The notes under the pieces were generated by a model. The model saw only the letters and a list, made by a program, of their open reading frames with translations. It was not told where the DNA came from and ran no database searches. DNA of 64,000 nucleotides, taken from Halorubrum sp. BOL3-1. GTDB lineage: Archaea; Halobacteriota; Halobacteria; Halobacteriales; Haloferacaceae. How positions within the stretch are numbered: position 1 is the first letter of the stretch; each line of letters opens with the position of its first letter. The position numbers and the translations under genes are program-made. Shown here in pieces: positions 23,777 through 34,610 of this stretch. The stretch covers positions 806,001-870,000 of the forward strand of contig NZ_CP034692.1 of assembly GCF_004114375.1 (NCBI RefSeq), read 5' to 3'.

Positions 23777-23863
23777 ATGGACGCTGCGGGATTAGGAACC
23801 TCCGAGAGGCGGTCGCCTCACTTCGTTCGGCGCTGCGTCTCTCGTGGTTCAAATCCTTCGCCC
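23777..23863 (-). repeat. degenerate tRNA-Arg tail: direct and inverted copies
   Basis: In the non-coding 23645-23898 gap. At 23777-23800 the plus strand (ATGGACGCTGCGGGATTAGG, then AACC) matches the tRNA-Arg 3' tail at 23898-23920 with few mismatches and one extra base inside the T-loop, at an offset of 121 bases. At 23846-23856 GGTTCAAATCC is an exact 11-base inverted copy of the same tail, followed by CTTCGCCCC. The two copies can pair as a hairpin of about 20 bases. Confidence 0.75.
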
Positions 23864-23898
23864 CGGTTTTCACTCCTCACTACGTTCGTCGTGAAACA

Positions 23899-23973
23899 TG
23901 GGCGCTGCAGGATTTGAACCCGCGACAGCTTGGTCCGAAGCCAAGTACTCTGTCCAAACTGAGCTAAGCGCCC
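23899..23973 (-). tRNA. tRNA-Arg (anticodon UCG)
   Basis: Cloverleaf on the minus strand, 75 nt including the discriminator A. Acceptor stem GGGCGCT/AGCGCCC (7 bp), D-arm GCTCAGTTTGGACAGAGT, anticodon stem CTTGG/CCAAG around loop CTTCGGA giving UCG (Arg, CGA codons), and T-arm GCGGG-TTCAAAT-CCTGC. CCA is not encoded. No intron is seen. The 3' tail is duplicated twice downstream. Confidence 0.95.
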
Positions 23974-33916: not shown

Positions 33917-34224
33917 TGCGGTGCTGTGGCGCGCGCCTCCGGGCGGTCGCCTCTGGCGACCGCGAGGAGCACCGTGCGAGGGAGTCGGTGGTCCGGAGCG
34001 AAGCGACGGACCACCGACAAGGCTGGGAGAGGTGAGAGGTGCGGTGCTGTGCGGGGCGGGAGTTGAAGGGGCAGTCGCCGGCGCTGCGCGCCGGCTGGCA
34101 GAGAATCTTCGATTCTCGCTGCCGCGAGGCGGAGAGAGGCGACGTAAGCACCGCAGCGAAGGTGCGATAGCGACTGAGCGAGGAGCACAGCGAGCGTCTC
34201 TCCGCCTCGCGGCTGGGGCTTCGA
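33917..34224 (-). repeat. dispersed hairpin-rich element, copy B
   Basis: About 308 bp, minus orientation. Reading the minus strand it has GAAGCCCCAGCCGCGAGG, an outer stem with 17-base arms (34121-34137 and 34197-34213), a small hairpin GAGAATCTTCGATTCTC (34101-34117), GCCCCTTCAACTCCCGCCCC, a stem near 33983-34017 (GTCGGTGGTCCG with its complement), and the terminal GGCGCGCGCCAC. The region 34225-34536 beyond it holds no gene. Confidence 0.85.
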
Positions 34225-34417
34225 GAGTGTCACCGCGTCAGAAACAACTTCATTTTACTACCTTCCTATCCCCGGAATAACCGTTTTATAAATACGCTTG
34301 AACGAGCGCCTGCTTCAGTCGTAAATGTACGAAAATTAGGTCCCACAGAGTCATAGATCCGCACCTCCTAACTGATAGACCTATCAGTAAACGTTAAAAA
34401 AGCGCATTTATCAGGAG

Positions 34418-34495
34418 CGGGCCGGACGCGATTTGTAACACACGGTCACTCGCTCCGCTCGCGCTGCGTGTTCCCTGCGTTCAAATCGTGCCTGC
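34418..34495 (-). repeat. degenerate tRNA-Lys tail: direct and inverted copies
   Basis: Plus-strand 34418-34441 (CGGGCCGGACGCGATTTG, then TAACAC) repeats the tRNA-Lys 3' tail at 34537-34559 with one mismatch and one extra base in the T-loop, offset 119. An inverted copy, GTTCAAATCGTGCC, lies at 34479-34492. The layout repeats that behind tRNA-Arg. Confidence 0.75.
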
Positions 34496-34536
34496 CGGTT
34501 CGTTCGACGGTTCGCGTCGCTCACCGTTTCACTGTA

Positions 34537-34610
34537 CGGGCCGGGCGCGATTTGAACACGCGACCGACGGATTAAGAGTCCGTCGCTCTCCCTAACTGAG
34601 CTACCGGCCC
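34537..34610 (-). tRNA. tRNA-Lys (anticodon CUU)
   Basis: 74 nt on the minus strand with discriminator G. Acceptor GGGCCGG/CCGGCCC, D-arm GCTCAGTTAGGGAGAGC, anticodon stem ACGGA/TCCGT with loop CTCTTAA giving CUU (Lys, AAG), and T-arm CGCGT-GTTCAAATC-GCG. No CCA encoded and no intron. On the minus strand CCTTTTACCG (34633-34642) about 25-30 bases upstream is a likely promoter. Confidence 0.95.

Follow-up and report, generated by a model that had tools for sequence, protein, structure and literature searches.

Two tRNA genes of the window, by which we mean the whole 64,000-nucleotide stretch of Halorubrum sp. BOL3-1 DNA that was analysed, taken from a 3.37-Mb contig, are each followed by a hairpin (H1), an inverted copy of the tRNA's own 3' tail (T'), a second hairpin (H2), and a direct copy of the same tail (T). 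Judging from sequence comparison, these features apparently belong to a previously unrecognised, class-wide family of gene-less tRNA-tail insertions of about 115 bases; no earlier description of the haloarchaeal units was found in the literature of one open library. We lean towards reading both as decayed members of ORF-less "tRNA-tail cassettes," which would be inserted into the T-loop of tRNA genes through site-specific recombination, with the enzyme supplied in trans.

Table 1. Parts of the two units in the window and their host tRNA genes
Feature	Position	Strand	Basis
tRNA-Lys(CTT), host gene	34537..34610	-	ARAGORN; Rfam RF00005, 66.7 bits
H1, spacer hairpin from the tRNA-Lys 3' end to the inverted copy	34493..34536	-	sequence and folds
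T', inverted tRNA-Lys T-loop and inner T-stem, GTTCAAATCGTGCC	34479..34492	+	93% complementary; offset 44-58
H2, second hairpin module (GCAGGGA...GAGCG...), from T' to T	34443..34478	-	sequence; single-strand fold pairs T'-H2-T
T, direct tRNA-Lys tail, T-loop to discriminator base; 1 mismatch and 1 inserted base	34418..34442	-	
tRNA-Arg(TCG), second host gene	23899..23973	-	ARAGORN; Rfam, 63.9 bits
H1 hairpin of the tRNA-Arg unit	23858..23898	-	sequence and folds
T', inverted tRNA-Arg tail, GGTTCAAATCCT	23846..23857	+	12/12
H2 module, tRNA-Arg unit, ACGAGAGACGCAGCGCC...GGCGACCGCCTCTCGGA	23801..23845	-	
T, direct tRNA-Arg tail, degenerate, GGTTCCTAATCCCGCAGCGTCCA	about 23778..23800	-	

The direct copy behind tRNA-Lys, CGGGCCGGACGCGATTTG at 34418 to 34435, showed 94% identity to the tRNA tail at a spacing of 119 and ran on to 34442 past one inserted base, and the 14-nt inverted copy at 34479 to 34492 matched at 93%. 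The tail copies reported at this gene in the preliminary description are therefore real. The inverted copy lies 51 nt from the tRNA arm, and the same distance was measured at tRNA-Arg(TCG); the two genes also agree in the order of tRNA, inverted copy, and direct copy, as had been claimed. The flank past the degenerate direct copy of tRNA-Arg resembled the empty-site flank of sister species. The T'-H2-T segment of the degenerate tRNA-Lys copy alone gave a single-strand fold z of -1.0. The one-base insertion that the preliminary description noted in the direct-copy T-loop of both tRNAs was found at tRNA-Lys, tRNA-Arg(TCG), and tRNA-Thr(CGT) of the Halorubrum genome but is rare elsewhere (13 of 175 cases, as counted with a simple classifier in loci mostly selected for an intact loop); it is a locus-specific detail and not a general trait.

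Three side observations concern the surroundings of these units. Positions 34030 to 34240, some 180 bp past the tRNA-Lys unit, hold a dispersed intergenic palindromic repeat ending in CGCGGCTGGGGCTTCG. Its blastn matches, 62 counting full and partial ones, fall at several dozen places in the genome, and its end motif matched four times in the window. About 50 kb past the tRNA-Lys locus, some twelve tRNA genes that are unusual or redundant lie densely clustered (L042, contig positions 888800 to 897000), an arrangement that calls to mind the tRNA array of a provirus or plasmid. In addition, a related form of the tRNA-Arg H2 core was seen inside dispersed repeats of the sister species G045 (L417 to L423, e.g., L419), which carry the arms GGGACC/GGTCCT in place of the T-loop arms; to judge from these repeats, hairpin modules nest in unrelated palindromes.

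The tail of each of the 45 tRNAs in the Halorubrum genome was aligned, as such and inverted, to the 200 bp on either side of the gene, and the chance level was taken from 2,000 permutations of the tails among the tRNAs. A direct own-tail copy within 200 bp downstream was detected at 17 of the 45 tRNAs (permuted mean, 1.93; maximum, 6; 0 of 2,000 as good), an inverted copy at 12 (mean, 3.56; maximum, 10), and an inverted copy followed by a direct copy at 8 (mean, 0.90; maximum, 4). The upstream flanks of the same tRNAs yielded one direct copy and neither inverted nor ordered copies. Two further haloarchaeal genomes, whose tRNAs came from an unbiased tRNA scan, showed direct copies at 26 of 41 and 18 of 41 tRNAs (permuted maxima, 10 and 11). 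Across the three genomes, which represent different families, about 38 to 63% of the tRNAs carried own-tail copies at such a distance, with offsets clustering at 70 to 145 bp. The preliminary description had held that two tRNAs would hardly agree so well by coincidence and had suggested comparing every tRNA tail with its downstream DNA; the copies at other tRNAs place the agreement beyond coincidence. Short matches between tails and flanks are expected from chance similarity or paralogous T-loops, since the core TTCRAATC is common to all tRNAs. However, the permuted tails stayed far below the 17 copies observed, and the reversed form of the search pattern given below was unmatched in any genome. 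The tail permutation tests in three genomes rule this explanation out, and we give it practically no credence. The comparison loci used hereafter, outside the 45-tRNA and the two 41-tRNA sets, were picked by an intact-T-loop pattern, so that statements on loop integrity and location drawn from them are biased. At L057 (about 1440 to 1565; contig 1640912), a unit whose tail is of the CCCGGGACTA type, probably that of tRNA-Gln, stands as an orphan: it has no recognisable tRNA ahead and is joined to AT-rich DNA. This is probably a rearranged locus.

The pattern GTTCRAATC-N40-70-GATTYGAA-N22-52-TTCRAATC was present in 356 of 391 Halobacteria genomes (91%) and in 83 of 86 genera. In a phylum sample, 74 genomes matched, all of them among the 81 Halobacteria, and none of the 312 other genomes did; the reversed pattern found no match in any genome scanned, either among the 391 Halobacteria or in the phylum sample. 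When named genomes were scanned, most matches came from haloarchaea. By inspection, an equal plan was recognised outside haloarchaea in Woesearchaeota (L384), a Methanomassiliicoccales genome, Oligoflexia (L374), and two Oscillospiraceae genomes (L338 and L377). The direct copies of these units scored well over all shuffles, and their inverted copies scored over or near the best shuffle. In the Oligoflexia locus, the duplicated segment takes in the hairpin after the tRNA as well. Three bacterial scan matches (L312, L317, and L337) were rejected as chance tRNA clusters. Of the T'-H2-T places in the loci retrieved for comparison, which were selected by the pattern, 202 followed a detected tRNA at a distance of no more than 500 bp and 3 did not; the exceptions were two chance matches and a unit (L130) whose tRNA went unrecognised. 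The preliminary description is thus borne out in that the agreement of the two tRNAs is no coincidence, but the two forms in which it worded a general mechanism, a tRNA-tail palindrome generator or a conserved 3' structure, are not supported.

The anatomy of the units bears on the first of these. Measured from the tRNA end to the end of the direct copy, unit length had a median of 114 (interquartile range, 104 to 123; n = 143), and the spacing of about 120 bases noted at the two window genes is typical. The units contain no ORF. The duplicated tail is 21 to 22 nt long and ends at discriminator base 73; identity was 0.85 to 1.00 from G52/G53 to base 73 and 0.13 to 0.48 outside these limits (n = 135 units). 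T' is complementary to the T-loop, with base 57 matched in 124 of 126 units, and to the own-tRNA-specific positions 62 to 64, where the match was 0.89, 0.76, and 0.46 to the own tRNA versus 0.70, 0.48, and 0.23 to other tRNAs. The order H1, T', H2, T repeats in arrays as alternating chains of up to four units, and single arrays combine different H1 and H2 types. Among 75 arrays, the tRNA-proximal direct copy was the better one in 40, the worse in 11, and tied in 24 (P = 1.4e-5). H2 modules were 88 to 100% identical across tRNAs of different amino acids and across genera; sharing of H1 between tRNAs was never seen in the same comparison. A de novo palindrome generator, in which replication template switching would copy the tRNA tail backwards and forwards with no mobile element involved, would fit both the host specificity of T' beyond the universal T-loop and an H1 that differs at every tRNA. 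It does not explain why the same H2 modules recur at different tRNAs and in different genera; the sharp limit at base 73 and the restriction to one class within the phylum also speak against it. Already weakened in this way, this generator appears very improbable to us. Two structural readings were also set aside: the T-runs after the tRNA showed no difference between filled and empty tRNAs, which speaks against a terminator explanation, and a kink-turn considered by eye for H1 gives way to ordinary Watson-Crick pairing in many units.

Next to sites carrying a unit, sister species showed empty sites with matching flanks for both window tRNAs. At tRNA-Arg(TCG), the empty locus L415 reads ...GCGCCCA-TTCGTTTTCCGAACGG, and in the filled locus L391 the unit stands before ...GCGCCCA-TTCGTTCTTCGAACGG; a second tRNA-Arg comparison sets the empty L410 and L407 against the filled L408. 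At tRNA-Lys, L080 is empty and L075 is filled, and the tRNA-Lys of L078 carries two different units in tandem. In empty sites, the homologous flank joins base 73 directly. The tRNA-Lys units of six species were 90% identical, and the flank that follows them was at the shuffle level (0.54 versus 0.52). The filled and empty pairs indicate that the unit was precisely inserted or lost. Its conservation far above the surroundings reflects either spread or constraint. That one and the same tRNA may be filled in one sister species and empty in another contradicts a conserved 3' structure.

A tRNA 3'-end duplication at both ends and a precise empty site are also found with tRNA-targeting integrative elements, and the units may be ordinary integration scars of viruses or plasmids, in which the element was deleted and the att-proximal DNA was left. 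Archaeal elements usually integrate at tRNA tails, and their sites are identical to the 3' end of the tRNA (PMC8371274); an exact 18-nt copy of the tail core lies 1228 bp downstream of tRNA-Gly(TCC) in L014 without T'; this distant copy suggests a conventional scar or a small island and serves as a contrast case. The units, however, keep a standard length and plan across the class and alternate in arrays, and haloarchaeal provirus scars duplicate 43 to 57 nt of the tRNA (PMC3119063), in contrast to 21 to 22 nt in the units. Phage and plasmid records gave no blastn match, and two specific H2 patterns were unmatched in viral contigs, where a looser pattern proved unspecific. Because of the short duplication, the standard size and plan, and the absence of a virus or plasmid match in these searches, simple integration scars are unlikely.

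Integration at the T-loop with restoration of the tRNA, as known from tRNA-targeting integrases (review, PMC8371274), would leave a sharp limit between GG and TTC on the left and would end on the right where the tRNA ends. The duplication in the units is sharply bounded at these two points, as T-loop integration would have it. We infer mobility of the units through site-specific recombination at the T-loop. Each insertion would leave a complete tRNA, H1, T', H2, and then the 21- to 22-nt tail copy joined to the old flank, and repeated insertion at the tRNA-proximal end would produce arrays of the form T-H1-T'-H2-T-H1-T'-H2-T. The putative recombinase would act in trans and is most likely a tyrosine recombinase. 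More speculatively, the T'-H2-T palindrome may fold as a single strand and serve as the recombination site in the manner of attC, the T-arm of the tRNA then taking the part of attI. The mixed arrays and the exchange of H2 between tRNAs favour movement. Against the cassette reading, H1 was never common to different tRNAs, although hops of whole units should sometimes give that; the polarity of the arrays could stem from gene conversion with the neighbouring tRNA as donor; and empty sites could come from deletion between direct copies, a process proposed for haloarchaea (Haloquadratum) (PMC3119063). No larger element ending in T'-H2-T was found within 8 kb of sampled tRNAs, and no recombinase was linked to the units. 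A wider version, which we put forward as a doubtful extension by analogy, is a gene-less integron-like system of Halobacteria in which folded T'-H2-T recombines with tRNA T-loops and tRNA genes act as array platforms; it would have sporadic archaeal and bacterial relatives, with E. coli RtT as a relict.

The main rival to the cassette reading is an RtT-like RNA, and we regard it as a real possibility, though a clearly less probable one. The units would then be transcribed trailers of tRNA operons, 3'-processed into functional small RNAs and inherited mainly vertically, with tandem duplication and loss between direct copies. In a comparison of folding energies over 173 units, used here because ungapped palindrome mismatch counts gave too few events for a strand test, T'-H2-T folded strongly, and the tRNA-sense strand of H2 with its arms folded better than the complement in 143 units versus 30 (P = 2e-18), which counts for the RNA explanation and for the cassette reading as well. 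In the same comparison, the sense strand was not richer in G.U pairs than its complement, and RNA-level selection is for this reason neither shown nor excluded. Conservation of the units well above the flank is also in favour of this rival, as are the E. coli tyrT repeats, which show an equal alternating chain of inverted and direct tails, match the RtT family, and vary in copy number (median, 2; range, 1 to 9 places per genome). Against it, units occur at only 40 to 60% of tRNAs and are patchy among sister species, arrays contain unrelated H1 and H2 types, H2 is common to different tRNAs and genera, and no Rfam family was assigned to the haloarchaeal units at the gathering score.

Roughly one tRNA gene in two across an entire archaeal class seems to bear a regularly patterned, unannotated insertion that standard annotation has missed, which affects the calling of mobile-element scars and tRNA pseudogenes. 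Hundreds of natural filled and empty sites become available for tracing the responsible enzyme, and the origin and role of E. coli tyrT/RtT become testable by comparison.

The puzzling tyrT repeat of E. coli has been known since 1979, and RtT has been described as an RNA transcribed from a single tRNA operon; it is not known as a family of insertions. Downstream of E. coli tyrV, we found inverted tail copies at 59 to 80, 237 to 258, and 415 to 436 and exact 19-nt direct copies at 159 to 178, 337 to 356, and 515 to 534; the repeats of this locus (L457) match RtT RNA (RF00391). As in these repeats, a direct tail ends each haloarchaeal repeat, an inverted copy lies inside it, and the repeats stand in tandem behind the tRNA. 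The E. coli tyrT/tyrV repeats (RtT, RF00391, rttR) differ in that the unit is longer (178 bp), the direct copy begins inside the T-loop (AATCC) and takes in CCA, and the repeats carry the tpr ORF, whereas the haloarchaeal units are ORF-less. No sequence relation between the two was detected at Rfam thresholds, and the RtT model at its gathering score was unmatched in the window and in 14 haloarchaeal loci. Integron cassettes with attC resemble the units by analogy only, as a lead, in an imperfect hairpin as the 3' part with a variable hairpin interior, and integron arrays are alike in order, in their mixed composition, in having the best-preserved member nearest the fixed site, and in a left duplication limit between G and TTC. 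Integron cassettes, however, carry genes and the units none, and the fixed site of the units is a tRNA T-arm. Archaeal integrative elements of the SSV, pNOB8, pT26-2, and SNJ2 types likewise target tRNA 3' halves, duplicate the tail, and restore the tRNA (PMC8371274), but they are kilobases in size and carry an integrase gene, in contrast to ORF-less units of about 115 bp with an internal inverted tail. REP/BIME sequences and haloarchaeal PATEs and MITEs (PMC3119063) are also short non-coding palindromes, and the units share with BIMEs the alternation of orientation and two kinds of spacer. Derivation as an IS200/IS605-type PATE, which is dispersed, has subterminal palindromes, and makes no target duplication, does not fit the 21- to 22-nt duplication and the tRNA-tail location. 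The units differ from all these palindromes in that their repeat is the host tRNA's own tail and their place is at tRNA 3' ends.
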